A model generated the notes under the pieces. That model saw only the letters and a list, made by a program, of their open reading frames with translations. It made no database searches and had not been told where the DNA came from. From NCBI RefSeq assembly GCF_036046055.1, contig NZ_CP107939.1, forward strand, positions 3,658,001 to 3,722,000: a stretch of DNA of 64,000 nucleotides. Reading direction: 5' to 3'. Position 1 is the stretch's first letter. Each line of letters opens with the position of its first letter. This document shows positions 6,541-30,319 of the stretch, piece by piece. Position numbers and translations under genes: made by a program. This stretch comes from Nocardia sp. NBC_00403. GTDB taxonomy: Bacteria; Actinomycetota; Actinomycetes; Mycobacteriales; Mycobacteriaceae.

Positions 6541-7692
6541 TCAGGCAGCGCGGGCTGCGCGCAGCCGCCATGCCTCGGCGAGCAGGCGATGGGATTCGAG
6601 GCGGTCCTCGTGGTCGTAGGCGATGCTGGTGACGAGGAGTTCGTCGGCGCCGGTGACGCGTTGCAGTGCGGCGAGCCGTTCGGTGACGGTGGCGGGTGCG
6701 CCGACGAACTGGGTGGCCAGGCGGTCGTCGACCAGGCGCTGCTGCTCCGGCGTCAGCGCAGTGGCCTGGTCCGGATCGAGATAGTCGGCGGCGCCCGCTC
6801 CGCTACGGATGCTGTGCACCCAGTGACCGTAGGTGGAGGCCCTGCGTCGTGCGGTGGCATCGTCCGGCGCGACGACCACATCCGCCGAAATCACCACATA
6901 GGGCTCGGCCAGCTGGGCCGACGGCCGGAAGGCCCCCCGATAGGCATCGACCGCGTCCAGCGCGGTACCCGGTGCGACGTGGTAAGCCGCGGCGAACGGC
7001 AGACCGAGTTGCCCGGCGAGTTCGGCACTTTCGCCTGCCGAGCTGCCGAACAGCCACAACTGCACCTGCGCGCCCTCGCCGGGAACCGCGTGCAACGCAA
7101 CACCATCGGCGCTCGTGTAGGTGCCGTCGAGCAGTGCGCGGACCTCGTCGACCTGGTCGGCGAAGTCCAGCGGCTGTGCGCCCTCCTGCTGCAGCGCGGC
7201 GATCGAAGCGATGAACTTCGACCGGTCGGCGATCCGGCCGGGATCGAACGGCGGCGGGACCACCACGCCGTCCCTGATCTCGGTGCGCCCGGTCACCGTG
7301 TCGAGCACCGGATGACTCTTCTTCGGATGCTCTGGTTGTGCACCGAACTGGGCGCGGCGGTGCCCGGACCGGCCCAGGCCGAGATCGAGGCGACCCGGGT
7401 GCAGGGCATCGATGGTGCCGAACGCCTCGACGATCGCCGCGGATGTGTGGTGCCCCACCTGCACCGCACCCGAGCCGACCCGGATGCGCGAGGTGGCCGC
7501 GGCGACTAGACCGATCAGCGTGATCGACGAGGAACTGGCCACCGAAACGAAATGGTGCTCGGCCAGCCAATACCGGTGATAGCCCCAGTCTTCGGCGTGT
7601 TGCGCGAGATCGATGGTGTTGCGGATGGCCTGCTGCGCGGTCGACCCGGCGCTGATCGGCGCGAGGTCGAGGATGGACAGTGGGACACTCAT
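6541..7692 (-). CDS. LLM-class flavin-dependent oxidoreductase (last gene of sulfur operon)
   Basis: A 383-residue luciferase-like TIM-barrel monooxygenase expected to use reduced FMN and O2. The N-terminus PLSILDLAPISAG and the segment YHRYWLAEHHF are typical of the group often annotated as MsnO8-type LLM enzymes. LGLGRSGHR (about residue 110) corresponds to the flavin phosphate region. The ATG at 7692 is preferred over upstream starts because it overlaps the DUF1684 stop as ATGA. It closes an overlapping gene chain starting near 21.5 kb. The substrate is not known; organosulfur oxidation is inferred from the operon. Confidence 0.85.
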   Translation of the reverse strand: MSVPLSILDLAPISAGSTAQQAIRNTIDLAQHAEDWGYHRYWLAEHHFVSVASSSSITLIGLVAAATSRIRVGSGAVQVGHHTSAAIVEAFGTIDALHPGRLDLGLGRSGHRRAQFGAQPEHPKKSHPVLDTVTGRTEIRDGVVVPPPFDPGRIADRSKFIASIAALQQEGAQPLDFADQVDEVRALLDGTYTSADGVALHAVPGEGAQVQLWLFGSSAGESAELAGQLGLPFAAAYHVAPGTALDAVDAYRGAFRPSAQLAEPYVVISADVVVAPDDATARRRASTYGHWVHSIRSGAGAADYLDPDQATALTPEQQRLVDDRLATQFVGAPATVTERLAALQRVTGADELLVTSIAYDHEDRLESHRLLAEAWRLRAARAA

Positions 7693-8495
7693 GCCGACCT
7701 GCCGAACCGCGGATTCTGCTCTCCCGCTTCGATGGCCACGCGCAGCCGGTTCTCCGCGGGCGCCAGCGGGCACGTCGCGAATTCGGTGAAGGCGCAGGGC
7801 AGGTTCGCCGCTCGGTTGAAGTCGAGCCGGACGGTGCCGTCGGAGTCGGGTGCGTCCACGGCCAGCGAGCGGGCCGCGGGGTAGGTGGTGACACCGCTGG
7901 TGGCGTCGGTGAACAGCACCCGCAGGTTCGCGGGCTCACCGAAGGCGATGACCCGTTCGGTCACCTCGCCGATGCGGAATTCGATAGTGCCCGCGGCAGT
8001 GTGGTGATGTTCGAGACCGTCGACAACGGCGCCGGTGGTCACCGTCTGCGGTGCGTCGAACGGAACGAATCGGCCCTCGACCACCCAGTGTGGATCGGGT
8101 GCGTAGGCCGGGATGCCGTCGAACCTCAGCAGTGTCGGCGCGGCCGGATCGTGTACTCGTACCGCGTACTGTCCGGTGCGGCGAATTACTTCCAGCACTC
8201 GATCCTCGTGCAGCACAGTGAGTCCGGGTGCACCTTCGGCGGGGGTGAGGATCTGCACGCCCGCGATGCCGGTGCCGTCGAACTCCAGCCGATCGGCGGG
8301 CTGTGCGGTGATGAATACCTTGTCGTCGGTCACCCACCAGGTTCCTGGCACCCCGGGCAGGCGCTCGGGTCGGTCGGTGAGCCAATGCAATCCGGTCAGA
8401 CTCAGGAAGCCGAGCGGGTCGCGCAGCTGATCCTCCCTGGCGTGCTGCCAGGAAGCCCACTCGGTCTCGAAAAGTGTTGTGGTGCTGGTGGTCAT
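7689..8495 (-). CDS. DUF1684 domain protein
   Basis: A 268-residue soluble protein covering the whole DUF1684 family. Recognisable conserved blocks are PLGFLSLTGLHWL near the N-terminus, VLFTDATSGVTTYPAARSL in the second half and LDFNRAANLPCAFTEFATCP near the C-terminus, with CAF and CPLAP cysteines as in the family. The biochemical role is not established. It overlaps both neighbours by ATGA (NtaA-like upstream, LLM downstream), so it is probably made in stoichiometry with monooxygenases. This suggests a role in handling their products, which is inference from position only. Confidence 0.85.
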   Translation of the reverse strand: MTTSTTTLFETEWASWQHAREDQLRDPLGFLSLTGLHWLTDRPERLPGVPGTWWVTDDKVFITAQPADRLEFDGTGIAGVQILTPAEGAPGLTVLHEDRVLEVIRRTGQYAVRVHDPAAPTLLRFDGIPAYAPDPHWVVEGRFVPFDAPQTVTTGAVVDGLEHHHTAAGTIEFRIGEVTERVIAFGEPANLRVLFTDATSGVTTYPAARSLAVDAPDSDGTVRLDFNRAANLPCAFTEFATCPLAPAENRLRVAIEAGEQNPRFGRSA

Positions 8496-9868
8496 GACGC
8501 TCGGGCTCCTTCGTGTGCGGTGCTGCGGTGGTTCTGGTGCGGGTGGGGCAGGCCGAGATGGTCGCGCAGGGTGGCGCCGGTGTACTCGGTGCGGAAACTG
8601 CCGCGTTCCTGCAGCTCCGGTACCACGCGCTCGACGAATTCATCGAGCCCCGCGGGGGTGAGATGCGGGACGAGGATGAAGCCGTCCGCGGCGTCTGCCT
8701 GTACATAGGTGTCGATCTGTTCGGCGACCGCGGCCGGCGTGCCGACGAACTGCTGGCGCGCGGTGACCTCGATGATCAGCTCACGGATGCTGAGCTGCTC
8801 CGCCTCGGCCTTCGCGCGCCATCCCTCGGCCACGGCGCGCGGGTCCTTGGCGTGGCGTACCCGGCCGCGGGTGATGGTGGCGTCGCCGGATGGTTCGACA
8901 TCGGGCAGCGGCCCGTCCGGGTCGTAGCCGGAAAGATCACGGCCCCACACCTGTTCGAGGAAGGCGATGGCGGTCTGCGGGCCGACCTGCTGGAGTCGGA
9001 TGTGCCTGGCCCGCTCCTGCGCGTCATCGGCGGTGTCGCCGAGCACGAAGGTCGCGGCGGGCAGAATCTTCAGCTCGTCGGGGGTGCGGCCGTATTTCGC
9101 CAAGCGGCCTTTTACATCCGCATAGAACTGCTGCCCGGCTGCCAGCGAGCCGTGCCCGGTGAAGATGGCGTCTGCGCTGGCCGCACCGAACTCCCGGCCC
9201 TCGTCGGAATCGCCTGCCTGCAGCAACACAGGGTGTCCCTGCGGACTCGGTGGCAGCACGAACCGGCCCGAGATATCGAATTGTGTATTGCGATAGCTGA
9301 TTTCGGGAACATCGCGGGCGAAAACGCCCGCCTCGCGATCTACCACCAGCGAATCGCCCGGCCAGCTGTCCCACAGCGCGCGGCTGACTTCGATAACCTC
9401 GGCGGCCCGCCGGTAGCGCTGACTGTGCTCGAGATAGCCGCCGCGCCGGAAATTTTCGCCGGTGAAGGCATCCGACGAGGTGACGACATTCCATGCCGCC
9501 CGACCACCCGAGAGATGATCCAACGTCGCGAACTGCTTGGCCAACTCGAAGGGCTCGTTGTAGGTGCTGTTGATTGTGCCCGCCAGCCCGAGCTTGTCGG
9601 TGACCGCGGCCAGTGCATTCAGCACGGTGAACGTATCCGGTCTGCCCACGACATCGAGATCGTGGATCCGTCCGAGATGTTCGCGCAGCCGCAGCCCCTC
9701 GGCAAGAAAGAAGAAGTCGAACAACCCGCGCTCGGCGGTCTGGGCCAGATGTACGAACGACTCGAAATCGATCTGACTCTTCGATGTCGGATCACTCCAC
9801 ACGGTGGTGTTGTTCACCCCCGGAAAGTGCGCGGCAAGATGAACCGCCTTGCGAGGTTTCCCACTCAT
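8492..9868 (-). CDS. NtaA/SnaA/DszA-type FMN-dependent monooxygenase
   Basis: A 458-residue enzyme of the two-component monooxygenase group that includes nitrilotriacetate monooxygenase A, DszA and Bacillus CmoJ/YxeK. Visible family blocks are FDFFFLAEGL, the segment around residues 85-115 with EPFELAKQFATLDHLSGGRA, AAWNVVTSSD, and PVLLQAGDSDEGREFGA. A reduced-flavin donor must come from elsewhere, as no flavin reductase gene lies in the operon. The ATG at 9868 shares a base with the preceding stop (TGATG) and has an AAGGGA ribosome site. In related operons such enzymes oxygenate S-alkylcysteines or sulfonates/sulfones. Confidence 0.88.
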   Translation of the reverse strand: MSGKPRKAVHLAAHFPGVNNTTVWSDPTSKSQIDFESFVHLAQTAERGLFDFFFLAEGLRLREHLGRIHDLDVVGRPDTFTVLNALAAVTDKLGLAGTINSTYNEPFELAKQFATLDHLSGGRAAWNVVTSSDAFTGENFRRGGYLEHSQRYRRAAEVIEVSRALWDSWPGDSLVVDREAGVFARDVPEISYRNTQFDISGRFVLPPSPQGHPVLLQAGDSDEGREFGAASADAIFTGHGSLAAGQQFYADVKGRLAKYGRTPDELKILPAATFVLGDTADDAQERARHIRLQQVGPQTAIAFLEQVWGRDLSGYDPDGPLPDVEPSGDATITRGRVRHAKDPRAVAEGWRAKAEAEQLSIRELIIEVTARQQFVGTPAAVAEQIDTYVQADAADGFILVPHLTPAGLDEFVERVVPELQERGSFRTEYTGATLRDHLGLPHPHQNHRSTAHEGARAS

Positions 9869-11076
9869 CACAGCGTCCCTTCCGAAGTAGCGGTGGAGGT
9901 TTGCGCGTAGCGGCTGGCGGGCCGCGCCAACCCGAGGCGTGACCGCAGCATTCCTGGGCTGCTGCTGTCCGCACGTGTTGTCGGGATTCGCACGCCTGCT
10001 GGGTGCCCTGAACGGGTGGGGACCCCGTGCAGGGGTGCTGTGGCGAGGAGGCGGAGGGCGGCAGGTGCGGCGAGGGGGCGCAGGATGACGCCGTCGGTGG
10101 CGCAAGCGCGGAGGGTGGTGATGAGCTCGCGCAGTGTGTCCGGAGTGCCGAGGTGGCGCAGCGTGTTCGGTGCGTTGGTGTCCGCCGTGGCGATCGGGTC
10201 GGCCCAGCGGTCCAGCTGAGCCACCTCGTCGTGCGCCGCAGCCACCGTGTCGGCCAGGTGGATGTCGATATCCAGCAGTACTCGGACCTTGTCCGGATCG
10301 CGGCCCGCGGCCGCGAGCGCGGCACGCAGCGCCGCGCGTCGTGCGGCCGCCGCGTCGAGATCGGCGGCGGCGACGCGGATCAGGTCGGCGTGGCGGACCG
10401 CTACCGCCGTGCTCGGTGCGTCGGCGGCGCGGATCGTGATGATCGGCAGACCCTGCGGAGCACGCGGGGTGATCGACGGGCCCTTGACCGAAAAGTTCTC
10501 GCCGACAAAGTCGATGTAGTGCAGCTTGTCCCTGTCGATGAAGCGGCCGGTCGACTGGTCGCGGATCTCCGCGTCGTCCTCCCAGCTGTCCCACAGCCGC
10601 GTGACCACGTCGATCGCCTCGTCCGCCTCGTGCCACAGCGCCGCGCCCGCCTGGGCGTCCTTGCGGCCGAATACCCGTGCCTGCTCGGCGCCTTCGGAGA
10701 CGGTGACCTCCCAGCCCGCGCGGCCGAGCGAGGCGAAATCGAGGCTCGCGATCGCCTTGGACAGATGGAACGGTTCGGTGTGTGTTACCGCAGCCTGTGC
10801 GATCAGTCCGATGCCGTGGGTGCGCGCGGCGACCCTGGCGGCGATCGCGATCGCATCGAGCACGCCCCTGGCGACCCCGGCCCCGCCCTGCTGCACGCCG
10901 AACGAGTCGGGCACGAAAACCGCGTCCACCCCGGCGCTTTCGGCGGCCGCGACCGTATCCACCCAGTAGCCGCCGGTGAACAGATCCTCGGCTCGTGAAT
11001 CGTCGCGCCGCCACGACGCCGGATGCACACCGGTTCCGGTGAGCTCCACACCGAGGAAGAAATCCGAATCAGGCAT
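9868..11076 (-). CDS. LLM-class flavin-dependent oxidoreductase
   Basis: A 402-residue luciferase-like protein, more divergent than its neighbours. The N-terminal part contains GYWVDTVAAAESAGVDAVFV and THTEPFHLSKAIASLDFASL, the latter matching the HP-hS(K)ATLD-type segment of NtaA-related enzymes. The last 60 residues are Arg/Ser/Thr-rich and probably disordered. The ATG at 11076 has an upstream GGAAAGGA-like site and lies within the small preceding frame. Its stop shares a base with the next start. Substrate unknown; probably a second oxygenase of the sulfur salvage route. Confidence 0.8.
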   Translation of the reverse strand: MPDSDFFLGVELTGTGVHPASWRRDDSRAEDLFTGGYWVDTVAAAESAGVDAVFVPDSFGVQQGGAGVARGVLDAIAIAARVAARTHGIGLIAQAAVTHTEPFHLSKAIASLDFASLGRAGWEVTVSEGAEQARVFGRKDAQAGAALWHEADEAIDVVTRLWDSWEDDAEIRDQSTGRFIDRDKLHYIDFVGENFSVKGPSITPRAPQGLPIITIRAADAPSTAVAVRHADLIRVAAADLDAAAARRAALRAALAAAGRDPDKVRVLLDIDIHLADTVAAAHDEVAQLDRWADPIATADTNAPNTLRHLGTPDTLRELITTLRACATDGVILRPLAAPAALRLLATAPLHGVPTRSGHPAGVRIPTTRADSSSPGMLRSRLGLARPASRYAQTSTATSEGTL

Positions 11077-11170
11077 CAGCGCGATCCTTTCCAGTCGATT
11101 CGAGGGGCGGGTAGTGCGCTGCGGTGGCGATCTGTGCGCCGTGGCGGCCGGGTCCGGCGAGGATGTGCAT
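11069..11170 (-). CDS. Tiny coupled open frame (33 residues)
   Basis: The ATG at 11170 shares a base with the stop of the ABC ATPase (TGATG), and its TGA falls eight bases inside the following LLM gene. The frame begins [20 protein letters not shown] and then turns polar. No family is recognised. It may be a real small protein, a decayed N-terminus, or a relay that carries ribosomes across a 93-base gap. Similar stop-start chaining by tiny frames occurs elsewhere in this window. Confidence 0.4.
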   Translation of the reverse strand: MHILAGPGRHGAQIATAAHYPPLESTGKDRADA

Positions 11171-12957
11171 CAGAACTGCCCTTTCGTGACGGCGGCGTGG
11201 GCGGGGATGGCCGACAACAGTTCCCGGGTGTACTCGTGCTGGGGGTTGTCGAAAATGTCGGCGGTGTGGCCGGTTTCGACGATGCGTCCGTTGCGCATCA
11301 CCGCGACCCGGTCGCTGATCCGGCGCACCACTGCCAGGTCGTGCGAGATGAACAGGTAGCTCAATCGCAGTTCGGCCTGGAGGCGCTCGAGCAGTTCCAG
11401 GATCTGGGCCTGCACCGAAGCGTCGAGCGCGGAGACCGGTTCGTCGAGTACGAGCAGGTCGGGGTGCAGCGCGAGCGCTCGCGCGATGGCGACCCGCTGC
11501 CGCTGCCCGCCGGACAGTTCGGCGGGTCGCCGCCGGCTGAACTGCTCCGGCAGCGCAACCTGTCCGAGTAGTTCCCGCACCCGCGTCTGCCGGGCCTTGC
11601 GGTCGCCGACTCCATACGCGCGCAACGGTTCCTCGATGATCGACCCGACGCGCCAGCGTGGGTCGAGGGAGGCGTAGGGGTTCTGGTACACCACCTGGAA
11701 GCGCCGGCGCAGCGCCCGCAGCTCGGGTCCCCGGACCGTTGTCAGCTCGCGTCCATCGAAGGTGACCGCACCGCTGTCGGGTTCGCAGAGCCGTAGGGCG
11801 ATGCGTGCGGTGGTGGACTTGCCGGAGCCGGATTCGCCGACGAGCGACAGCGTTTCGCCCCGTCCGAGGTCGAAGCCGACGCCGGCGACCGCGGTCACCG
11901 ATCCGCCGGAGTGCGCACGGAAGCGCTTGTGCACCTCGCGGACCGAGAGCAGCGGCTTTTCTTCGGGGTGGCGGCGCGGCCGGAACCCGCCGAACGGAGC
12001 CAGGCTCGGCGATGCCGCGAGCAGGCGCCTCGTGTAGGGGTGCCGCGGTTCGGCGAGCACGGCTGCGGTGGGACCGGTTTCGACGATCTCGCCGCCGTTC
12101 AGCACCACCAGGCGATCGGCCCGCTCGGCGGCCACCGCGAGATCGTGGGTGATCAGCAGGACGGCCGTGCCGCGGGCAGCGATCTGCGCGGCAAGCCCAT
12201 CGAGCACCCGGCGCGCCACCGTCGCATCCAGCGCACTGGTCGGCTCGTCGGCGATCACCAGCTCCGGCCCGCAGATCAGCGCGGCCGCGATCAGCACCCG
12301 CTGTCGCTGTCCGCCGGACAACTCGTGCGGATACTGCGTGGCCCGCAGTTCCGGCCGATCGAGCCCGGCCTCGGTGAGCAACTCCACGGCCCGCCGCTCG
12401 GCATCGCGCCGGTCGGCCAGACCATGCACGATCAACGCCTCGGCGACCTGATCGCCCACCCGCTGTACCGGATTCAACGACAGCCCGGGATCCTGCGGGA
12501 CGAATCCGATCCGAGCCCCGCGCAGTCGCCGCACCGCCCGTTCGGACCCGGTGTCCACGATCTCCCCGTCGAAAGTGACCGTCCCGCCGTTGATCTCGGC
12601 ATTCGGCCCGAGCAACCCGATCACTGCCTGCGCGAGCGTCGACTTACCGGAACCGGATTCACCGACCAAGGCGACAACCTCACCACGTGCCACGGTGAGC
12701 GAGGCACCGGCCAACGCGGTGACGGGACCGGAGTCGGACCGGTAGCGAACATGGAGACCGTCGATGCGAAGGAGCGCGGCATCGGGTGCCGATGATTCGA
12801 CCCCGATCGCGCCGGGGGCGACCGGGTCGGCGCTGGTACCTACCGGCGCTTCGGCGACCGTCACCAGCGGCCGGCCGCCGGCCGGCCCGTCACCTTCGCT
12901 CGTTTGTACCGCGTGGTGATCGGCCGGATGGACGCTGCGGAAATCGTTGTCGCTCAT
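11170..12957 (-). CDS. ABC transporter ATPase with two fused nucleotide-binding domains (DppD-DppF type)
   Basis: A 595-residue fusion of two peptide/opine/nickel-type ATPases energising the adjacent permeases. After a variable N-terminus of about 60 residues, domain 1 has GESGSGKST, the signature LSGGQRQR and ADEPTSALD. Domain 2 starts near residue 330 with [17 protein letters not shown] and LDEPVSALD. Each domain ends with the family-typical HPYTRRLL or HEYTRELL. Such DF fusions are common in actinobacteria. It overlaps dppC-like by ATGA. Confidence 0.93.
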
Positions 12958-13826
12958 GCGTGCTCACTCCCGCTGACGGTGCGGCCGAGGCGCTGGGCGG
13001 CCAGGACGACCGCGATGATCACCAGGCCGGGCAGTGTGGTCATCCACCAGGCGGTGGCGAGGTAGTTGCGGCCCTCGGAGATCAGTGAGCCCCATTCGGG
13101 AGTAGGCGGTTTCGCGCCGTAGCCGAGGAAGCTCAACGCCGAGACCGAGAGCACCGCCATGCCGAACTCGACGGCGGCAAGAGCGAGCACCGGCTGGTAG
13201 GCGTTGGGCAGCACGTGCCGGGCGAGCACGCTGTACCAGCGGACGCCGGAGGCGTGCGCCGCCTCCACGAACGGTGCTTGGCGTACCCGCAGCACTTCCG
13301 AGCGCATCACCCTGGCGAAGTTGGCGACCAGCGAAACACCCACGGCGATAGCCACATTGCGGGTGCCGAACCCGAGCGCGGTGACCAGAGCCAGCGAAAG
13401 CAGCAGCGCGGGAATCGACAGCAGCACGTCGACGAATCGCATGATGAGGGTGTCGACGACGCCGCCGATCGACCCGGACAGCAAGCCGAGCACCGACCCG
13501 GCGACCAGCGCGATCGCCACCGCCGAAAGCGTTGCGGTCAGCGAAAGTCCCGCACCGTGCACCATCCGTGTGTAGAGATCGCGGCCGAGATTGTCGGTGC
13601 CGAACCAGTGCTGAGCGCTCGGCCCGCGGAACTTCTCGGCGGGCACGCCGGTCAGCGGATCGCCACTGGCGAACACCGACGGCGACAACGCCCACCCCAG
13701 CGCGATCAGCACGACCAGGACGGCGATGATCTGCGCCGCATTGCCGCGCAAGGTCTTCCCTCGCAATACTGGCCGCCGCAACCACGGCGCTGCCACGCTG
13801 CGCCGCTCGTCGAGTACGTCAACCAT
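12954..13826 (-). CDS. ABC transporter permease, DppC type
   Basis: A 290-residue inner-membrane permease with about six membrane helices. The N-terminal DppC/OppC segment is followed by [20 protein letters not shown], diagnostic for this subfamily, and the EAA-loop region has [23 protein letters not shown]. It pairs with the DppB-type permease, the DppDF ATPase and the family 5 binding protein. Unlike the rest of this tight operon, 227 bases separate it from the upstream permease gene. Confidence 0.92.
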
Positions 13827-14053
13827 GGACGTTCACCTCCGCAATGTTGTCGATGCGCAGCCACGGCGCGAAGGCGAAGCCGAGGGAAGGCCATTCCGGC
13901 AGCAGAGCCAGTACGGTGTTGTCGTGCACGACGGGTGCATCGCGCCACTGCGCTGATCTGCGGTCGGCCGGAAAGGTGTGTGGAGCCGGCGTCGATGGGG
14001 TAGTGCGGCGCCACGAGAGCCCCAGTCTTTTCGGCAGCGATGCCGCGGGTAGA
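13827..14053 (-). other. Gap inside tight operon with a protein-like open frame
   Basis: Between the two permease genes there is no full-length gene. One minus-strand frame stays open across the gap and stops at 13819, eight bases inside the dppC-like gene. Its last 36 codons, from a GTG at 13929, read like protein (LPEWPSLGFAFAPWLRIDN). I recognise no family, and it may be a gene remnant or a short uncharacterised peptide. Confidence 0.35.
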
Positions 14054-15055
14054 TCAGGCACGGGCACCCACCTCCGCGCCGGTGGTGCTGTCGGCGGTGG
14101 TCCGGTTCGGCGCACGACGGGTGCGCCCCGCGATGCGCGGATCCAGCAGCGGATAGAGCAGGTCCACCGCGAGATTGACCGTGACGAAGACAGCCGAGGT
14201 CAGCAGCACGATGCCTTGCACGACCGGAATGTCCTGAGCGAGCACGGACGTCTGGGTGAGACGTCCGACGCCGGTGCGGGCGAACACGGTCTCCACCACC
14301 ACCGATCCGGCCAGCATGTTGCCGACCAGTACACCCGCGATGGTGAAGGTGGGCAGCGCCGCCGAGCGCAGCACATGCTTGCGCTGCACCCACCAGCGCG
14401 AACCGCCCTTGGCCACGGCCACATCGACGAACGGCTGCCGCCACGTCGATTCCAGTCCGGTCGCGAGCACCTGGGCGATCACCGCGCCGATCGGGATGGC
14501 GAGGGTAATGGCGGGCAGAATGGTTCCTGCGAAGCCGTGGCCACCGAATGCCGGCACAAGCCGGAACTGGAACGAGAACAGTTGCAGCAGAAGCAGTCCG
14601 GTCCAGAAGGTCGGCACCGAAACGCCGAGCGAAGGCAGCGACCGCAGCGTGTTGCGCAGCCAGGGGCGCCGCGAGTACGTCGCGGCGAAGGCCACCGACA
14701 CACCACCGACGGTCGCGAAAAGCAATGCCGGCGATGCCAATCCGAGCGTCGAGGGCAGCGCGTCACCGATCGCGTCGGTGACCGGTTGGCCGGTCGAGAT
14801 GGAATGACCGAGGTCGCCGCGCACCGCCTGCGTCAGCGCCGTCCAGTACTGCTCCCACAGTGGACGATCCAGCCCATACCTGGCCTGCAGTTCCGCGACC
14901 GCGGCCTTGTCCACCGCCGTGCCCGAACCGCCCGCGTCGGCGGCGATGGACACCGGGTCGGCGGGCAGGAGGTAGAGCACCACGAACGAGATGCTGAAGG
15001 CCGCCCACAGCACTCCCACCGCCTGCAGTGCTCGCAGCGTCACGTAGCGTGCCAT
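14054..15055 (-). CDS. ABC transporter permease, DppB type
   Basis: A 333-residue permease of the peptide/opine/nickel class. It begins MARYVTLRALQAVGVLWAAF, the usual first helix. It contains ELQARYGLDRPLWEQYW and GDLGHSISTGQPVTDAI, both hallmark DppB segments, and an EAA loop with FVDVAVAKGGSRWWV. The ATG at 15055 lies two bases after the stop of the binding-protein gene, which fixes the start and excludes upstream alternatives within that gene. It forms the membrane channel with the DppC-type permease. Confidence 0.92.
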   Translation of the reverse strand: MARYVTLRALQAVGVLWAAFSISFVVLYLLPADPVSIAADAGGSGTAVDKAAVAELQARYGLDRPLWEQYWTALTQAVRGDLGHSISTGQPVTDAIGDALPSTLGLASPALLFATVGGVSVAFAATYSRRPWLRNTLRSLPSLGVSVPTFWTGLLLLQLFSFQFRLVPAFGGHGFAGTILPAITLAIPIGAVIAQVLATGLESTWRQPFVDVAVAKGGSRWWVQRKHVLRSAALPTFTIAGVLVGNMLAGSVVVETVFARTGVGRLTQTSVLAQDIPVVQGIVLLTSAVFVTVNLAVDLLYPLLDPRIAGRTRRAPNRTTADSTTGAEVGARA

Positions 15056-15057
15056 CG

Positions 15058-16677
15058 CTACCGCCCACTCAGCCAGGTGTCGAAGAACTGCAGTCGCGCC
15101 GAGGCCTCGAACTTCAGATCCTGCACGTTGCCGCCGGCACCGATGGCCTGCGACAGTTCGACCGTCGGAATCCACAGACCCGAATCCAGTACTGCCTGCT
15201 GCGCGGTGCGGATGAGGGCGTTGCGTGCGGCGGCGTCGCCGGTGCTCAACTGTCCGTCGAGTGCGTCGTCCAGCGTCGGGATACGCTCGCGCACATTGAG
15301 ATTGCGACTATCCACGCTGAATGCGCTGCGCAGGATGTCGCCGTCGGCGCGGGTGCTGTTGTAGTAGACACTGTCGTAGTCCTTGGCGTTCTGCCGCGCG
15401 GTGTACTCCGCGGCCGCGACCAGATCCAACCGCAGTTCGACGCCGATCTGGCGCAGCTGCTGCTGCACCAGTTCGAGGATCGCCTGATTGCCCGCGAACA
15501 CCTGGCTGAACAGGACCGAGAAGGTCAGCCGCTCACCGTTCTTCACGCGAATGCCGTCGCCGCCCGGTGTCCAGCCCGCCTGCTCGAGGATGCTGCGTGC
15601 CTTGGCTTGGTCGAAGGGCAGTGTGGCCGACAGATCCTGATAGCCCGGCGTGGTGCTGGCCAGCGAGCTCGTCGCGGTCTTGAATTGCGGGCCGAGCACG
15701 GTGTCGATGAGCTGCTCGCGGTCGATGGCAGGCAGCAGCGCCTGGCGGACCGCCGGATCGCGCAGTGGTCCGCGGGTGACATTGGGCTGGAAGCCGAACG
15801 GCACGCCCGGGTTCGCGGTGCTCAGCACGCGCCCGCCGGTCGCCTCGATCTGGGGCGCGTCCTGCGGCAGGGCGTCGCTGATGGCATCGAGTTGATTGGA
15901 GCCGAGACTTCCGGTGCGGACTCCGGACTCGGGGACGACGGTGAACTCGATCTTGTCGAGGTAGGCCTCGCCGCGGTGCGCGAACACCGCCGAACCCCAG
16001 TGGTATCCGGCGCGTTTGGCCAGCGTCGCCGAGGCATCCTGCCGGTAGTTCGCGTAGGTGAACGGGCCGCTGCCGACGTTGTCGCCCGCGCAGCGTTGTT
16101 CGGCGGGTTTCGCGGTGGTGACGTCGGCGAGGATGCCGAGCTGCGCGGTCGAGGTGGCCTGCAGGAATTGGGCATTCGGCTTGCTGAACTCCACGCGGGC
16201 GGTGAGCTTGTCCACCGGAGTGGTCGCAACATAGTTGGTGAGATAGCTCGCGCCGAGCGGCGCCTTCGCCGCGCCCAGCTCGAGGACCGAGTCGAAGGTC
16301 TTCTGCACCGATTCCGCGGTCAGCGGCGTGCCGTCGCTGAAGGTGACGCCGTCGAAGAGGTGGAAGGTGAAGACCTTCGCGTCGGGGGTGACCTCCCAGC
16401 TCTGCGCAAGCCAGGGCTTCAGTTCGCCGGTCTTCGGATCCTGATCGGTCAGCGAATCCACGATCTGACGGCTGACATACAGCGTCTGATTGGTGCCAGA
16501 CTGTGCGGGATCCGAGCAGGTCGGCGCCACCGACAGGCCGTAGCGCAGCGTGCCACCCGGCTTGGGCGGGCCCGCGTCCGCGCCGGTCCCTGCCGAATCA
16601 CTGCCGCAGGCGGCGAGGCTCGCGGCCGCGGTGACGGCTGCGGCCACGGCCGCGATTCGATAGCGGGGTCGGATCAC
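15058..16677 (-). CDS. Family 5 extracellular solute-binding lipoprotein
   Basis: A 539-residue lipoprotein with a signal peptide ending in the lipobox SLAAC (lipidated Cys at about residue 24). The mature protein starts with a Gly/Ala-rich linker and then GGTLRYGLSVAPTCSDP, the usual first strand of SBP family 5 (peptide, opine, nickel and other ligands). Further family blocks are PWLAQSWEVTPDAKVFTFHL and GVTFSDGTPLTAESV. The GTG start overlaps the LLM stop as GTGA. The ligand is not predictable from sequence; the setting suggests an organosulfur compound. Confidence 0.92.
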   Translation of the reverse strand: MIRPRYRIAAVAAAVTAAASLAACGSDSAGTGADAGPPKPGGTLRYGLSVAPTCSDPAQSGTNQTLYVSRQIVDSLTDQDPKTGELKPWLAQSWEVTPDAKVFTFHLFDGVTFSDGTPLTAESVQKTFDSVLELGAAKAPLGASYLTNYVATTPVDKLTARVEFSKPNAQFLQATSTAQLGILADVTTAKPAEQRCAGDNVGSGPFTYANYRQDASATLAKRAGYHWGSAVFAHRGEAYLDKIEFTVVPESGVRTGSLGSNQLDAISDALPQDAPQIEATGGRVLSTANPGVPFGFQPNVTRGPLRDPAVRQALLPAIDREQLIDTVLGPQFKTATSSLASTTPGYQDLSATLPFDQAKARSILEQAGWTPGGDGIRVKNGERLTFSVLFSQVFAGNQAILELVQQQLRQIGVELRLDLVAAAEYTARQNAKDYDSVYYNSTRADGDILRSAFSVDSRNLNVRERIPTLDDALDGQLSTGDAAARNALIRTAQQAVLDSGLWIPTVELSQAIGAGGNVQDLKFEASARLQFFDTWLSGR

Positions 16678-17813
16678 TGTGGTACTCCAGATGTTTCGGT
16701 GCGGACGAGGTCGCCCTGCGAATCGAGGTCGTAGTCGGTGGTGGGTCGAACGGGATGGTCGGTGGCCGAGTTCACGGCCAATGGCCTGCTCTGAATCCGC
16801 CTGCGCAGTTCCGGGGCAACTGCGGACTGGAACAGCTCGAGGCTGTCGCGGTGCGCAATTGCGGTGCGTCCGTCGCGATCCGCGGCCAAGTGGGTCACCT
16901 CGTGGCCGAAGTGCTCGTGCTGACGGCTGACCTTGTCGATCACCTGCTCCGGGCTGCCGACCAACGCCGAGCTACGGGCGAGGAAGTCGTCGAGGGTCTC
17001 GAACACCACCGGCAACCCGAGCTTGCGGGCCAGCGCGAGTCGCGCCTCGAAGATCGGCCGGAACACCTCCGCGGCCTCCTGCGAGGTTTTGGCCACGTGG
17101 AATCCGGCGGTACCCGCGCCGACCATGGCATCGGCGGGGTCGTGCCCGTAGAACTCCCACCGCTCCCGGTAGTGGCGCACCAGCTCGGCATACGGCTCGA
17201 TGGGATTGGTGACGTTCGCCGAGAACAGCGGATCACCGTGGCGCGCGGCCAGTTCCACCGAGTCGCGACTCGTCGCGCTGCCGTGCCAGATGCGGATGCG
17301 CGGCTGCCACGGCCGTGGCAGCGCCTTGGCCGCGCGGAGTTCGGGCCGGAACCGGCCGGACCATGTCACGCTGTCGCTGGCCCAGAGCTCCCGGAACAGC
17401 TCGTAGCCTTCACGATTGCGGTCCCACTGATCGTCGGTGGTGACGTGGAACAGCTCCGCCTGCGCACTGCCGTTGCCCTTGCCGATGATCAGTTCGAGTC
17501 TGCCGCCGGAGAGATTGTCCAGCGTCGAGTAGTCCTCGAAGGCGCGCACCGGATCCAGCAGGCTCAGCGTGGTGACCGCGGTGAACAACGAGATGCGCGA
17601 GGTGACCGCGGCGATGTGGCTCAGGATCACCGGCGGTGCCGCCGACAGGAACGGATCCTCGTGCCGCTCACCGACGGCGAACCCGTCGTAGCCGAGCTCT
17701 TCGGCGATGCCCGCCTGCTCGATGACATTGCGCAGGCGCTCCCTGGTGCCGGGCAGCCGTCCGGTTATCGGGTCCGGAACCCGGGTGACCAGGGTGAAAA
17801 GCAGGAACTTCAT
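16674..17813 (-). CDS. LLM-class flavin-dependent oxidoreductase
   Basis: A 379-residue bacterial-luciferase-like protein. The N-terminus MKFLLFTLVTRVPDPITG and the stretch YDGFAVGERHEDPFLSAAPP carry the conserved ExH-type active-site region. LIIGKGNGSAQAELF is the flavin phosphate-binding loop. It lies directly between the GNAT (ATGA overlap) and the family 5 binding protein (GTGA overlap). A GNAT next to an LLM enzyme is also found in the Bacillus ytmI operon (snaA, cmoO), supporting a role in acylated S-alkylcysteine breakdown by analogy. Confidence 0.88.
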   Translation of the reverse strand: MKFLLFTLVTRVPDPITGRLPGTRERLRNVIEQAGIAEELGYDGFAVGERHEDPFLSAAPPVILSHIAAVTSRISLFTAVTTLSLLDPVRAFEDYSTLDNLSGGRLELIIGKGNGSAQAELFHVTTDDQWDRNREGYELFRELWASDSVTWSGRFRPELRAAKALPRPWQPRIRIWHGSATSRDSVELAARHGDPLFSANVTNPIEPYAELVRHYRERWEFYGHDPADAMVGAGTAGFHVAKTSQEAAEVFRPIFEARLALARKLGLPVVFETLDDFLARSSALVGSPEQVIDKVSRQHEHFGHEVTHLAADRDGRTAIAHRDSLELFQSAVAPELRRRIQSRPLAVNSATDHPVRPTTDYDLDSQGDLVRTETSGVPQ

Positions 17814-18373
17814 GCGTGGGCTCCTACCGGGTCGGAGGCGGGATGTGGGGCGGGCAGGTACTTCTCGAAGGGATGCGGGCCGATCTCTTCCGACGGGATG
17901 TCCGGGTCGTAGAGCGCGGTGTAACCGTGGGCCAGATACAGGGCGACGGCCTCGGGCTGGCGCGGACCCGTGATCAGGTAGATGCGGCGGTAGCTACGCC
18001 GTGCGATCTCGGTCTCCAGCTGTTCGAGCACGAAGAGCCCGAGTCCCTGCCTGCGGTGCTCACGTGCGGTCCAGATGCGTTTCAGCTCGGCGGTGTCGTC
18101 GTCGTAGCGTCGGAAAGCGCCACCTGCCACGGGTTCGCCGTCGCGGGTGACGACCAGCAGCGCACCGTCCGGCGCCGCGAACTCCGCGGCCGGATAGTCG
18201 CGCAGCGAGTCGTGCACCGCACCGACGGTCCGGCCGTAGCGCCTGCTGTATTCGACGGCGAGTTCTGCGAGCAGGGGCGTGGCCAACGGATCGTCCTGGG
18301 CGACCGCGTGCACGCACAGCTCGGGTCGTGTTGCCGGGGAAAGTCGCCGATTCGAGGAAAGTCGCTGTGTCAT
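17810..18373 (-). CDS. GNAT-family N-acetyltransferase
   Basis: A 187-residue acetyltransferase. The acetyl-CoA loop is readable as RIWTAREHRRQGLGLFVLEQLE (motif A, R/Q-x-x-G-x-G/A form), followed by the family end YLAHGYTALYD. In organosulfur salvage operons a GNAT acetylates the amino group of the imported S-alkylcysteine before monooxygenase attack and the acetyl group is later removed. No deacetylase is seen here, so one would have to be encoded elsewhere. The ATG at 18373 is seven bases after the binding-protein stop. Confidence 0.85.
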   Translation of the reverse strand: MTQRLSSNRRLSPATRPELCVHAVAQDDPLATPLLAELAVEYSRRYGRTVGAVHDSLRDYPAAEFAAPDGALLVVTRDGEPVAGGAFRRYDDDTAELKRIWTAREHRRQGLGLFVLEQLETEIARRSYRRIYLITGPRQPEAVALYLAHGYTALYDPDIPSEEIGPHPFEKYLPAPHPASDPVGAHA

Positions 18374-18380
18374 CGGGCTG

Positions 18381-19355
18381 TCACGACTTCTTCGGCAGGC
18401 CGGGCGGGTTGATCCGCGAGCTGGTCACCGTTTCGGTCTTCAGCCCCCACCGGTCGATGACCTGCTGGTAGGTGCCCGACCGGATGGCGTGGTCGATGGC
18501 CTTGTGCACCGCGCCGATCAGCCCGTTGTCCTTCTTGGTGAGCACGCCGATCTCGCCCTGGAGCGCCTCGCCCGCGCCGGAGAAGGTGGCCACGATCTTG
18601 GTCTGATCCGCGGTTGCCGCGTGGTAGATCGCGGTGGGGTTGGGTCCGATGTAGCCGTCGAGGCGATGCGAGGCGAGCGCCAGATAGTAGTCGCTGGTCT
18701 TGTCGAAGTAGGCGATGTCGATGGCGGGCAGTTTGTCGGCGGCGTTCTGCTCGTTCCACTTCACCAGCAGCTGTTCCTGGTTGGTGCCGGTGCCGACGCC
18801 GATACGCTTGCCTGCCAGGCTCTTACGATCCCGGTAGTCGAGCGTGCTGTCCTTGGGGATCTCGAGTGCGACGTTGTCGGTGCGGTAGGTGGCGAAGTCG
18901 TACTTCTCTTTGCGTTCCTCGGTGACGGTGACATTGCTGATGAACGCGTCCACCTCGCCGGAATCCACCCGGACGAAGTTCTGTGTCCAATCTGCCACCG
19001 TCGCTTCGAGTTTCAGTCCGAGGATGTCGGCGATCAGGGTGGCGAAGTCGATCTCGGAACCCACCACGGTCTTGTCGTCGGTGGCGTAGAAGCGCAGTGG
19101 AGGTGCGGTGCCGGACGCGCCGGTCACCACCAGGGTGCCGCGGTCGCGAATGGATCGGGGCACCTCGGCGGCGATGGCGTCGACCTTGGCTGTGTGCACC
19201 CGGCCCGATTGGGCGGGGGAGAGGTCGAAGGCGACCGTGCCCGCAGGCGCGACGACGGTATCCTCGTCGGGATCGGTGCCGCAGCCGGAGACCAGCACAG
19301 CGACCGTGGCGGCGACGCCGACCAGGGCGGAGAACTTCATCGAATACCTGTTCAT
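18381..19355 (-). CDS. Family 3 amino acid/cystine-type solute-binding lipoprotein
   Basis: A 324-residue binding protein of the polar amino acid class. The signal peptide ends in VLVSGC, so the lipidated Cys is near residue 25. Family segments are FYATDDKTVVGSEIDFATLIADILG, EVDAFISNVTVTEERKEKYDFA and the closing TYQQVIDRWGLKTE. Three in-frame ATGs are possible (19370, 19355, 19340). I use 19355, but 19340 gives an equally normal signal peptide. Cystine or a cysteine adduct is the likely ligand, given the cysteine leader at the head of the operon. Confidence 0.88.
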   Translation of the reverse strand: MNRYSMKFSALVGVAATVAVLVSGCGTDPDEDTVVAPAGTVAFDLSPAQSGRVHTAKVDAIAAEVPRSIRDRGTLVVTGASGTAPPLRFYATDDKTVVGSEIDFATLIADILGLKLEATVADWTQNFVRVDSGEVDAFISNVTVTEERKEKYDFATYRTDNVALEIPKDSTLDYRDRKSLAGKRIGVGTGTNQEQLLVKWNEQNAADKLPAIDIAYFDKTSDYYLALASHRLDGYIGPNPTAIYHAATADQTKIVATFSGAGEALQGEIGVLTKKDNGLIGAVHKAIDHAIRSGTYQQVIDRWGLKTETVTSSRINPPGLPKKS

Positions 19356-19377
19356 CAGGGGAGCGCGCATCGTGCGC

Positions 19378-20181
19378 TCAGCGGACTCGGGACAGAAATG
19401 CGCGGGTGCGCGGATGTTCGGGGTTGTCGAGAACCGCGGCGGGTGCGCCCTGCTCGACGATCGCGCCCGCATCGAGGAACACGACAGTGTCGGCTACCTC
19501 GCGGGCGAAACCGATCTCGTGGGTGACGATGACCAGCGCGGTGCCGCCGTCGGCAAGTCCGCGGATCACGTCGAGAACCTCGCCGACCAGCTCGGGGTCC
19601 AGCGCGGAGGTGGGTTCGTCGAAGAGGATCACCGGCGGTCGCAGCGCCAACGCCCGTGCGATCGCCACCCGTTGCTGCTGTCCGCCGGACAGCCGCCGCG
19701 GGTAGACATCGGCGAGCTCGCCGATGCCGACGCGGTCCAGCAGCGCCTTCGCCTCGCGCTCGATCTCCTGACGGGGGCGGCCCTGCGCGGAAATCGGCGC
19801 GAGCGTGACGTTGTCGAGCACTGTCAGATGCGGGAAGAGATTGAATTGCTGGAACACGAAACCGATGTGCGAGCGCTGCTTGCGGACCTCGCGGTCGGAC
19901 AGTGCGTGCAGAGTGTTGCGGCGCTGCCGATATCCGATCAGCTCGCCGTCGATGTGTACGGTGCCCGCCGCTAGCGGCTCCAGATGGTTGATCACCCGCA
20001 GCAGTGTCGATTTGCCGGAACCGGAGGGGCCGATCACGGCGACCACTTCGCCTCTGGCGACGGTCAGATCGATGCCGCGAAGCACCTCGTGTGCGCCGTA
20101 CGATTTGCGCACGCCACGGACCTCGACGGCGGGAGCCGCTCCGGTGCGCTGCTCGACTGTGTCGAGTGCCCCGGCGCTCAT
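19378..20181 (-). CDS. Polar amino acid ABC transporter ATPase
   Basis: A 267-residue ATPase of the GlnQ/TcyN class. Walker A is GPSGSGKST, the Q-loop segment is GFVFQQFNLFPHLTVLDNV, the signature is LSGGQQQR, and Walker B is [19 protein letters not shown] followed by the H-loop VTHEIGFA. The ATG at 20181 overlaps the permease stop as ATGA. It powers the upstream permease with the family 3 binding protein downstream. Confidence 0.95.
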   Translation of the reverse strand: MSAGALDTVEQRTGAAPAVEVRGVRKSYGAHEVLRGIDLTVARGEVVAVIGPSGSGKSTLLRVINHLEPLAAGTVHIDGELIGYRQRRNTLHALSDREVRKQRSHIGFVFQQFNLFPHLTVLDNVTLAPISAQGRPRQEIEREAKALLDRVGIGELADVYPRRLSGGQQQRVAIARALALRPPVILFDEPTSALDPELVGEVLDVIRGLADGGTALVIVTHEIGFAREVADTVVFLDAGAIVEQGAPAAVLDNPEHPRTRAFLSRVR

Positions 20182-21368
20182 CGGGTCGCTCCACGCGGTG
20201 CGGCCGAACCGATGTCGGCAATCTCGCGCAGCCGCTGCCAGGCCCGCTGCCACGGTGTCGGCGGCGGTGTGCGCTGCGCGCCCCTGGCGTAGTGACGTTC
20301 GATGTAGAACTGCGCCACCGACAGGATCGTGGTCAGGATGATGTACCAGACCGTGGCGACCATCAACAGCGGCACCACTCGGCCATTGCGGCCGTAGACC
20401 ACCTGGACCTGGTAGAAGAGTTCGGCGATCGCCATCACCGACACGATCGAGGTGCCCTTGAACAGGCTGATCACCTCGTTGGTCGCGTTCGGCAGGATGG
20501 AGCGCATCGCTTGGGGAACGACGATGGTGCGGAACTGGCGCAGCCGCGGAATACCGAGCGCCGCCGCCGCTTCCAGCTGGCCGGGATCGACGGAGATGAA
20601 ACCGGCGCGGATGATCTCGGCCGAGTACGCCGCCTGGTGCAGTGCCAACCCGATCACTGCCGCGCTGAACCCGCTGATCACGCCGTTCACCTCGAAGGTC
20701 AGGAATGAAGGGCCGAACGGGATTCCGAGGGACAGGGTGTTGTACAGGTAGGCGAGGTTGAACCAGAACAGCAGCTGCACGATCAACGGAATCGATCGGA
20801 ACGCCCAGATGTAGACCCACGAGATCACCCGCAGCACGGGATTGTTCGACAGTCGTGCGATCGCGAGCAGGGTACCGATCAGGAACCCGAGCGCCGTGCC
20901 CCACAGCGTGAGCTCCAGCGTGACCCGCAGCGCCGACAGCACCGACTTCGCGGTGAAGTACTTCGCGAACGTGGACCAATCCCAGCCGGGATTGGTCACC
21001 AAACCATGGACGAACTGTGCAAGCAGCACCAGCGCCACCGCACTGATCACCCACCGCCACGGATGCCGCGTCGGAGCAACCTTCAGCGCGGGCGTGCTGC
21101 GTGCGGCCGCCACGTTCTCGGTCGCGGTGGTTGCGGGCACACCGATGGCGGCGGTGGATCGTCCAGCGGAGGTCGTCGCACCCGCGTTGGGCGGATGGGC
21201 GATGCCACGGGACTCGACGGTGCCGGAAGTGGCGGATTCGCCGGATGCCGGGGTGGCGGGCTCGCCGGGTGCAGCCGTTGTGCCGGGCGCGTCGGGGGAG
21301 CCGGGTGCACCGCCGACGGCGGCGGCTGGGCCGAAGACGGCTGCGCCGGATGCGATGGACGCACTCAT
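20178..21368 (-). CDS. Polar amino acid/cystine ABC permease with long low-complexity N-terminus
   Basis: A 396-residue permease of the HisM/GlnP/TcyL type. The C-terminal 290 residues form the normal domain, with ALRVTLELTLWGTALGFLIG and the EAA segment GQLEAAAALGIPRLRQFRTIVVPQAMR. The first 95 or so residues are an Ala/Pro/Gly/Ser-rich cytoplasmic tail not needed for the fold and unusual in length. An AGGA ribosome site precedes the ATG. It is the first structural gene after the cysteine leader peptide, 92 bases downstream. One permease gene is present, so it probably works as a homodimer. Confidence 0.9.
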   Translation of the reverse strand: MSASIASGAAVFGPAAAVGGAPGSPDAPGTTAAPGEPATPASGESATSGTVESRGIAHPPNAGATTSAGRSTAAIGVPATTATENVAAARSTPALKVAPTRHPWRWVISAVALVLLAQFVHGLVTNPGWDWSTFAKYFTAKSVLSALRVTLELTLWGTALGFLIGTLLAIARLSNNPVLRVISWVYIWAFRSIPLIVQLLFWFNLAYLYNTLSLGIPFGPSFLTFEVNGVISGFSAAVIGLALHQAAYSAEIIRAGFISVDPGQLEAAAALGIPRLRQFRTIVVPQAMRSILPNATNEVISLFKGTSIVSVMAIAELFYQVQVVYGRNGRVVPLLMVATVWYIILTTILSVAQFYIERHYARGAQRTPPPTPWQRAWQRLREIADIGSAAPRGATR

Positions 21369-21395
21369 ATCGAGGTCCTTCGAAGAAACGAACGA

Positions 21396-21418
21396 GACCG
21401 GCCCCTCATCAGGCGGTC
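21396..21418 (-). promoter_or_regulatory. Candidate attenuator hairpin between leader peptide and permease
   Basis: GACCG and CGGTC can pair, extended by CC/GG after a bulge, in the 92 bases between the leader stop and the permease start. A second weak pairing, GTCAC with GTGAC, lies just upstream in the transcript. The stems are short, so an attenuator function is tentative. Confidence 0.35.
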
Positions 21419-21460
21419 ACATCACCCGGCCAGTGACGGGTGCTCAGTCTGGCGGTGCGG

Positions 21461-21544
21461 TCAGTCGCGACAGCTCGCGGCGGTGATGTGGCACTGGTCG
21501 ACATGGCGACGTGCCCAGCGGTTGACGCATTGCTCGGTGATCAT
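21461..21544 (-). CDS. Cysteine leader peptide (27 residues), operon attenuator
   Basis: An ATG with a near-perfect GGAGGA ribosome site seven bases upstream starts a 27-codon frame containing cysteine codons at positions 6, 18 and 25. Its middle, RWARRHVDQCHITAASCRD, matches the RRxHVD...C pattern of the short leader peptides found ahead of sulfur-assimilation operons in Streptomyces and mycobacteria. There, ribosome stalling at Cys codons under cysteine shortage is reported to raise expression of downstream genes. The strong ribosome site, the Cys content and the downstream cystine-type importer agree. Structure-level regulation was not tested here. Confidence 0.8.
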   Translation of the reverse strand: MITEQCVNRWARRHVDQCHITAASCRD

Positions 21545-21928
21545 TTCGGTTCCTCCATCGTTCCCGGCGGAAGCACCCGCACCCGGCGAGCGGGGGGTTG
21601 CTGCGACGTCGACGAGCCAGGTCTCTCGGTCGCTCTGGATGGTGCGACCCGCGGCGAGCGCGGGCCGTCGAAGGTCTAGCCGAAATAGCATGCGAAGTAA
21701 GGGCACTCCAGAACAAGGTTACGAATCAGCGTGAGCGCAGCCCTTGTCCGAGCGTCCGGTGCCCGCGATCATTGAGCCCGTCGTCGCGAGTAGCGCCTAC
21801 GTTCTGGCCCGAAGCGCAGATCACGGGTGTGCGACGCGCCGGAAAGTTGCTATCTCGAAGAATTCCTGCTGTACGAGTTTGCTGAAGTACCCTGACCTCG
21901 ATCGTGCCGACGTTGAGGAGGGTCCACA
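21545..21928. other. Divergent intergenic region of the sulfur operon and a secreted protein gene
   Basis: These 384 bases should contain promoters for the leader peptide and sulfur operon (leftward) and the secreted protein (rightward). On the leftward strand TTGTTC and a TATTTC or TAGACC element are present, but the spacing is poor and I cannot assign a promoter. No clear operator palindrome was seen. Confidence 0.4.
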
Positions 21929-22666: not shown

Positions 22667-22689
22667 CCAGCCCGGCCCGACCCTTTCGG

Positions 22690-22767
22690 CCGTCCATCCG
22701 CCGCACCGTGTCACCACCGGGCACCCTGTGTAGAAGGTGTCCGGTCGCGACACGGTGCGGCGGACGG
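22690..22767. terminator. Large inverted repeat between convergent genes
   Basis: GCCGCACCGTGTC (22700-22712) pairs perfectly with GACACGGTGCGGC (22749-22761). CCGTCC and GGACGG extend the stem outward after a four-base bulge, and an imperfect inner stem (ACCGGGCACC / GGTGTCCGGT) fills the loop. It is symmetrical and placed between a rightward and a leftward gene, as expected for a bidirectional terminator. Confidence 0.7.
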
Positions 22768-22874
22768 GCCGGGTGGAAGTGATGCAGCCGAGAGGCAGCC
22801 AACTCTCTGGGCTCGGTGGGTTCCAGCGGCCGGCTATGCAGGAGCCTCGGAGAATATCCACTGGGCGCGGCTGG

Positions 22875-30106: not shown

Positions 30107-30319
30107 CCGAGCGAACGAGTGCCACGCGGCCTCTGCCCGGACGTGGACCCTGACGTACTTCCCCGACGCCAGGTGCCGTGTTTCGGACAGAGACCACGCG
30201 GCATTCGTATTTTCGAAAGCAGCTGTCTATCAAGGCGACCCGTACGATGGTCGGACTTTCATCCGCCCAGGCGCTCCAAGTAGTGCAGGACGACGCGAGG
30301 CAAATCCCGGGAGGTCGAG

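Follow-up and report, generated by a model that had tools for sequence, protein, structure and literature searches.

Background

Riboswitches and leader peptides are usually seen as separate metabolite sensors. The classical S-box leader has a transcription terminator at its end; in classical attenuation theory a leader that is left untranslated leaves its operon off; and in the leaderless poly-Cys attenuators of mycobacteria a stalled ribosome frees the downstream ribosome-binding site. Mycobacterium tuberculosis has a B12 riboswitch acting on an upstream open reading frame (uORF), which to our knowledge is not known as a second metabolite sensor. Here we describe the head of an operon in Nocardia sp. 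NBC_00403 where one kind of sensor occupies the ribosome-binding site of the other: an S-adenosylmethionine (SAM) riboswitch aptamer of the SAM-I class overlaps the Shine-Dalgarno sequence of a short leader peptide containing cysteine (an arrangement we call the tandem). It lies in a stretch of 64,000 nucleotides (nt; contig NZ_CP107939.1, positions 3,658,001 to 3,722,000), hereafter the window, which is part of an 8.73-Mb single-contig genome. We consider it reasonably probable that the operon head is a two-input gate made of RNA only, and that expression of the operon requires low levels of both SAM and cysteine.

The ytmI operon of Bacillus, to which we return below, is under the regulators YtlI and CymR, and its pathway, which has a deacetylase in the operon, uses N-acetyl S-alkylcysteines. 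In mycobacteria, Cys-rich uORFs that came from a study of leaderless transcripts have been proposed as attenuators setting the expression of downstream sulfur genes, and the word riboswitch is absent from the portion of that article available to us (Shell et al. 2015, PMC4633059). In S. lividans, eight leader peptides are described beside one SAM-I and one SAM-IV riboswitch, and the passages of that study consulted here term none of them cysteine-dependent (PMC8079986). A thin literature search for SAM riboswitch, leader peptide and cysteine together found no description of the tandem in PMC8079986 or PMC1273637, and we do not claim that it is absent from print.

The riboswitch and the leader peptide share sequence

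The features that make up the tandem in the window are the following.

21552..21645, minus strand: SAM-I riboswitch aptamer (RF00162), found with Rfam at 50.1 bits against a gathering score of 44.4 (E 1.6e-8 over the window)
21552..21556, minus strand: GGAGG, the Shine-Dalgarno sequence of the leader, its first two G in the P1 closing helix
21461..21544, minus strand: Cys leader peptide MITEQCVNRWARRHVDQCHITAASCRD, with three Cys codons and RRHVD, conserved in frame

The aptamer is the only match to RF00162 in the genome, and because it sits directly before the leader, the control region reaches at least to 21645. The final bases of the aptamer, GATGGAGG, form the 3' side of P1 and continue into GGAGG, so the closing helix and the ribosome-binding site of the leader share sequence, and the leader ATG follows 7 nt further on. 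The aptamer ends in CGATGGAGG in 59 of 60 Nocardia loci, and a core of GCAACC and GGTGC is invariant across 29 aligned Nocardia aptamers. The window aptamer is predicted to bind SAM. Among relatives the leader starts -3 to 10 nt from the end of the aptamer, a near-fixed spacing.

The leaders of relatives share the consensus W-x-R-x-H-[VI]-D-[LQ]-C-R-x6-C, with a motif R-x-H-[VI]-D-[LQ]-C in which the Nocardia forms have Q in place of L. In an alignment of 26 chosen peptides the motif H and the first Cys are invariant (26/26), with hardly any variation at R, D, R and the last Cys; a Cys near the C-terminus (CxC) has been added in many relatives. For the 11 codons around the motif, the ratio of nonsynonymous to synonymous change (pN/pS) in 17 Nocardia leaders is 0.15 in the reading frame of the leader and 1.48 and 4.33 in the two others, and in 64 leaders from outside Nocardia it is 0.40 in frame against 1.09 and 2.32. 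Judged from sequence comparison, the leader is translated and evolves as a protein. Leaders were found at 57 of 89 aptamers and at none of 6166 positions shifted by 300-3000 bases. A sequence-only reading of this stretch had proposed a Cys leader at this place, and it is more than a chance ORF: leaders of the same type, conserved in frame, stand before the orthologous permease in other genera.

The NCBIfam family NF042934 (class cis_reg_atten, an actinobacterial 'putative leader peptide') was matched by 25 of 26 tandem leaders at E values up to 1, and its cut-off of 27 was passed by three of four leaders scored singly. Rhodococcus leaders at the equivalent place score 34.5-37.4 bits; the window leader, at 9.8 bits, lies under the cut-off, and has in common with the family a short ORF, an RxHVDLCR-like motif, Cys and a position ahead of sulfur genes. 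An RHVDL-type pattern was rejected as a means of finding leaders in the Nocardia sp. NBC_00403 genome: it gave 31 matches against 13 in a reversed control, and of 30 loci examined all except one (L126) look like chance. That one (C1:3129936-3129949) is a Cys-rich leader-like ORF, MRGSGVRLVARRHVDFKRVCSACCLPDCPR, which lies about 137 nt before a 440-codon ORF and has no SAM-I aptamer.

Distribution of the tandem among related genomes

RF00162 was matched in 148 of 198 relatives, with 72 of 118 in Nocardia and 76 of 80 in other families of the order (hand count of the table). The Nocardia set comprises 60 loci, drawn from 73 sites by hand count. In 59 of the 60 loci, two or more of the 13 operon proteins are encoded downstream; L087 has none, and L032 has merely relatives of 47-53% identity. 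In 12 of the 60 a Cys leader is the first ORF after the aptamer, and one of these leaders (L040) extends beyond the usual stop; at other loci the aptamer leads straight into the gene of a permease, a GNAT, a monooxygenase or a binding protein. The pattern RRH[IV]DQC occurs at 19 places in 18 of 150 Nocardia genomes: 16 are leaders behind an aptamer, one (G087) stands behind an aptamer with its frame broken, and two are chance.

For a wider set we took the best 80 permease-matched loci among the matches listed and searched them with a model built from the Nocardia aptamers, which gave 94 matches; 88 were used, and six weak ones (25-45 bits) were dropped. Leaders such as MNYLARPAWRRRHIDLCRTTSCHC and MDRALWRRLHVDLCRAGTCVCTQV are found behind the aptamer in Rhodococcus, Rhodococcoides and Williamsia. 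Rfam confirmed RF00162 at 14 sites in the loci of ten relatives (47.3-57.2 bits). Within the family, the same model matched in at least 91 of 301 genomes and at least 12 of 31 genera, where 84 sites were read. Leaders are present in nine genus-level groups. Weak matches to the model (24-45 bits) were also seen at L189, L208, L178, L185 and L212. The match of L212 is antisense and the other four are in sense immediately ahead of the permease; all are perhaps decayed aptamers.

Combining the 60, 88 and 84 sites gave a census of 183 distinct SAM-I sites, which leaves out the window's own site and is not a random sample. A Cys leader follows at once in 85 (70 distinct peptides), a long ORF directly in 59, another short ORF in 35 and nothing in 4. 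These classes are approximate, since the short ORFs include remnants (MIIEDPS, MNICTCTHA) and at least one leader missed by the motif (L196, HVDFG), and long ORFs in GC-rich genomes may be spurious. The GGAGG or GGAAGG at the 3' end of the aptamer serves the leader in 85 of the 183 sites and the long ORF directly in 59, and this fits translational control by the same helix. The architecture of the SAM-I/leader pair and its conservation are established by sequence comparison. At seven sites in Rhodococcus-type genomes (L310, L314, L318, L319, L323, L324, L333) the SAM-I aptamer directly precedes the gene of an apparently FAD-binding protein whose sequence contains the motif IVGxGPRGTGVLERxLA.

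The cluster is a single unit in Nocardia and in some Rhodococcus (L170). In three other Rhodococcus loci (L162, L180, L184) it is divided into two, one with the amino-acid importer and GNAT and the other with the peptide importer, each carrying its own SAM-I aptamer and leader, and in L174, L186 and L203 the GNAT gene has a third aptamer immediately in front of it. Of the 81 rows of a permease tree built by a quick method, 36 have the tandem, 23 have SAM-I without a Cys leader (vestigial leaders included), 2 have a leader without an aptamer, 19 have neither and 1 has SAM-IV with a leader; the tandem requires at least nine changes of state, of which five are forced by well-supported branches. 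The leaders without an aptamer, of the form RRRHIDLCR, stand before the orthologous permease in Rhodococcus zopfii (L168) and Rhodococcus sp. HM1 (L173). In several loci (L162, L165, L170, L180 and others) a second mini-ORF (e.g. MSVISGEGA, MYAQPRWSR) with the Shine-Dalgarno sequence AAAGG overlaps the start of the permease by GTGA, and because of this overlap translation of the permease is probably coupled to it.

The row with SAM-IV belongs to Nakamurella leprariae (L218), where a SAM-IV aptamer (98.8 bits) lies about 39 nt before the leader CRHIDLCRSDSALCRV. SAM-IV was found in 150 of 246 genomes of the class, and no Cys leader followed it at any of the 21 readable loci among 30 (two of these, L222 and L247, were read at a doubtful place); the Nakamurella arrangement is thus not the rule. 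The SAM-I/IV variant RF01725 was found in none of the 246 genomes. The Nocardia sp. NBC_00403 genome carries three SAM-IV riboswitches, at C1:1643020, 572411 and 2395033.

A proposed two-input gate and its alternatives

In the gate that we propose, plentiful SAM would close P1 and hide the Shine-Dalgarno sequence, so that the leader would remain untranslated and the operon would be off at any cysteine level, as in classical attenuators. The hiding of a Shine-Dalgarno sequence by P1 is expected because the sites with a long ORF directly after the aptamer show that layout, and in the tandem the hidden sequence is that of the leader; attenuation theory adds that the operon should be off under plentiful SAM irrespective of cysteine. 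When SAM is low the leader would be translated, and the ribosome on it would read cysteine: with cysteine present it would reach the leader stop and the operon would be off or low, and with cysteine short it would stall at a Cys codon, which would allow expression of the downstream genes. The organosulfur importers and oxygenases would then be made only under a joint shortage of SAM and cysteine. SAM binding, stalling for want of cysteine and the off mechanism are all predicted parts of this scheme.

The leader could instead be an arrest peptide: stalling would then be caused by the nascent chain and not by slow decoding of Cys, its cofactor would be cysteine or a different sulfur or redox signal, and the gating by SAM would be unchanged. 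The conserved residues are indeed mostly other than Cys (R, H, [VI], D) around the one invariant Cys, and the Cys codons of the window leader are scattered, with no run. Many relatives nevertheless add the C-terminal Cys, as a codon sensor would, and the NCBIfam label for the family says merely that it is a putative leader peptide. We regard an arrest peptide as unlikely.

A quite improbable alternative is that riboswitch and leader work in parallel: the former would halt the whole transcript by a route independent of the leader, and the latter would attenuate separately. The permease rows speak for it, with SAM-I lacking a Cys leader in 23 of the 81 (again counting vestigial leaders) and the leader lacking SAM-I in 2. 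It fits poorly with an aptamer whose 3' end is itself the Shine-Dalgarno sequence of the leader at near-fixed spacing, and with the 7 nt that separate aptamer and leader in the window, between which no intrinsic terminator was found.

The opposite logic, in which translation of the leader represses the operon and SAM, by blocking it, turns the operon on, is very improbable. The sign is not fixed by sequence alone, and fold predictions give no clear on state; yet in the 59 of 183 sites where the same helix and Shine-Dalgarno sequence stand directly before a long ORF, closure of P1 should lower expression, and a scavenging operon has no reason to be on when SAM is high. A leader that survives as an unselected remnant, with the riboswitch as the one working sensor, is hardly credible, despite the leader-less or vestigial forms (such as MIIEDPS and MNICTCTHA) and the changes of state on the permease tree, given the purifying selection in frame, the conservation across genera and the persistence of the leader without a riboswitch in L168 and L173.

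Returning to the serial gate, the region after the leader is where an off switch might be sought, and two features stand there.

21423..21453, minus strand: near-invariant post-leader element in 12 Nocardia sequences, with GCCAG/CTGGC and CACCCG/CGGGTG as overlapping, possibly alternative stems
21396..21418, minus strand: GACCG/CGGTC, a possible third stem with a T-rich stretch after it; the terminator search did not score it

Several results weigh against the proposed gate. The window aptamer lies just 6 bits over the gathering score, and the leader's Shine-Dalgarno sequence is partly, not wholly, in P1. Neither an intrinsic terminator (hairpin plus U run) nor a consensus promoter was found in the window, and the whole leader region folds no better than shuffled sequences (z +1.56; 95 of 100 shuffles matched or exceeded its stability). 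No general hairpin appears in the 80 nt after the leader (mean z -0.26, n=69), and the predicted accessibility of the downstream Shine-Dalgarno sequence shows no consistent change with ribosome position (means 0.339, 0.363, 0.337 and 0.341, n=60). Covariation of the three Nocardia stems is not significant, 140 of 500 shuffles scoring as high, in sequences that are almost invariant. Of 15 Nocardia leaders, just 8 are followed by 60 nt with more C than G.

Outside Nocardia the same 60 nt have a C content of 0.402 and a G content of 0.238, and C exceeds G behind 53 of 56 leaders; within the leader itself the figure is 33 of 56, and where the operon starts it is 36 of 56. This C-rich, G-poor stretch perhaps suits Rho, and the off mechanism may differ between clades, with the conserved hairpin region acting in Nocardia and Rho elsewhere.

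On balance we also favour, if narrowly, a wider view: a SAM riboswitch whose sole direct output is the translation of a second, cysteine-reading sensor, forming a serial and protein-free gate that in Mycobacteriales lineages has been doubled within the cluster, reduced to a plain riboswitch and rebuilt with SAM-IV (Nakamurella).

The operon and its predicted sulfur function

The sequence-only reading had described an operon behind the leader, and the operon is real: on the minus strand from 21544 to 6541, the leader ORF is followed by 13 protein genes, listed here in that order after the likely Shine-Dalgarno sequence of the first.

21376..21381, minus strand: GAAGGA, likely Shine-Dalgarno sequence of the first operon gene (from sequence)
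20178..21368, minus strand: amino-acid ATP-binding cassette (ABC) permease, cystine-like; best NCBIfam equivalog of cystine type, below its cut-off
19378..20181, minus strand: amino-acid ABC ATPase (family match)
18381..19370, minus strand: amino-acid binding lipoprotein SBP_bac_3; best NCBIfam equivalog of cystine type, below its cut-off
17810..18373, minus strand: GNAT acetyltransferase (family match)
16674..17813, minus strand: luciferase-like monooxygenase, CE1758-like (249.6 bits, below the family cut-off)
15058..16677, minus strand: peptide/nickel-type binding protein SBP_bac_5 (family match)
14054..15055, minus strand: peptide-type ABC permease B (family match)
12954..13826, minus strand: peptide-type ABC permease C (family match)
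11170..12957, minus strand: double peptide-type ABC ATPase (family match)
9868..11076, minus strand: NtaA/DmoA-like monooxygenase (224 bits, below the cut-off of 279.7)
8492..9868, minus strand: NtaA/DmoA family monooxygenase (417.7 bits, above the cut-off); closest solved relative YtnJ
7689..8495, minus strand: DUF1684 protein (152.3 bits)
6541..7692, minus strand: MsnO8 family luciferase-like monooxygenase (307.3 bits, above the cut-off)

Family matches bear out the proposed content of two importers, a GNAT, four luciferase-like monooxygenases and a DUF1684 protein. Most genes had been said to overlap, and 7 of the 12 junctions do: computed from the gene coordinates, with start codons of our choice, six junctions overlap by 4 nt and one by 1 nt, three have gaps of 2-7 nt, and two have gaps of 93 and 227 nt. 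The 227-nt gap (13827-14053) splits the two peptide-type permeases of an otherwise tight operon and has no feature recognisable by eye. The cystine-like permease is 88-92% identical to the permeases of named Nocardia.

A role in sulfur metabolism had also been suggested, and it is strengthened by the SAM-I aptamer at the operon head, the conserved Cys leader and the NtaA-type oxygenase at 8492..9868, for which the best solved relative is Bacillus subtilis YtnJ (1tvl, 297.4 bits, E 1.8e-87). From SAM-I control and family content, the predicted sulfur role of the operon is well supported. The idea of a wider actinobacterial system likewise holds, since both importers, the GNAT and the oxygenases recur in Nocardia and Rhodococcus clusters; the double importer is therefore not peculiar to the Nocardia sp. 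NBC_00403 genome. The description of the operon as controlled by a cysteine leader captured a leader that is real and conserved, but this was half the picture, as the SAM riboswitch overlapping its Shine-Dalgarno sequence had been overlooked. Taken as a whole, that interpretation is partly supported.

Upstream palindrome and other features of the window

One further element lies upstream of the aptamer.

21725..21735, minus strand: CTCACGCTGAT, a palindrome resembling an operator, which differs from ATCANNNTGAT at one position and lies some 90 nt upstream of the aptamer

Within 160 nt upstream, ATCANNNTGAT with at most one mismatch occurs at 49 of 89 SAM-I sites, where 2.2 are expected after shuffling, and the perfect form occurs at 15 sites with 0 expected, mostly about 50-100 nt upstream of the aptamer. 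The palindrome is probably an operator, which would give a third input through a transcription factor.

Elsewhere in the window, an mraW RNA motif (RF01746, 68.9 bits) is found at 30111-30216, and 22684-22780 is a long near-perfect inverted repeat. Matches of this repeat to microRNA families are far below gathering scores and were rejected as mere hairpin matches.

Comparison with known systems

The operon resembles the ytmI/YtnJ pathway of Bacillus subtilis in its GNAT, amino-acid ABC importer and luciferase-like monooxygenases, and differs in having a second, peptide-type importer, four oxygenases, DUF1684 and RNA control. A search for a deacetylase, confined to the 13 operon proteins, found none.

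For the control region, the window aptamer is a SAM-I (S-box) RF00162 element in its conserved core and in scoring over the curated threshold, but its 3' end carries the Shine-Dalgarno sequence of a regulatory leader ORF, neither that of an enzyme gene nor a terminator. NF042934 leaders differ from the window leader in that the latter sits under a SAM riboswitch. Like the mycobacterial Cys-rich uORFs, it is a short Cys ORF ahead of sulfur genes; a riboswitch and a Shine-Dalgarno sequence precede it in a presumed 5' untranslated region, which argues against a leaderless transcript of the mycobacterial kind. With the B12 riboswitch of M. tuberculosis it shares a short uORF as the direct riboswitch target, and the ligand and genes differ.

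The translation of a sensor for one sulfur metabolite appears here to be made conditional on the other. If this is true, cysteine and SAM, two pools of one pathway, are compared by RNA alone in a natural logic gate of which many variants already exist, and the gate shows when these bacteria scavenge organic sulfur. Widespread and uncharacterised putative leader peptides also gain a directly testable context.

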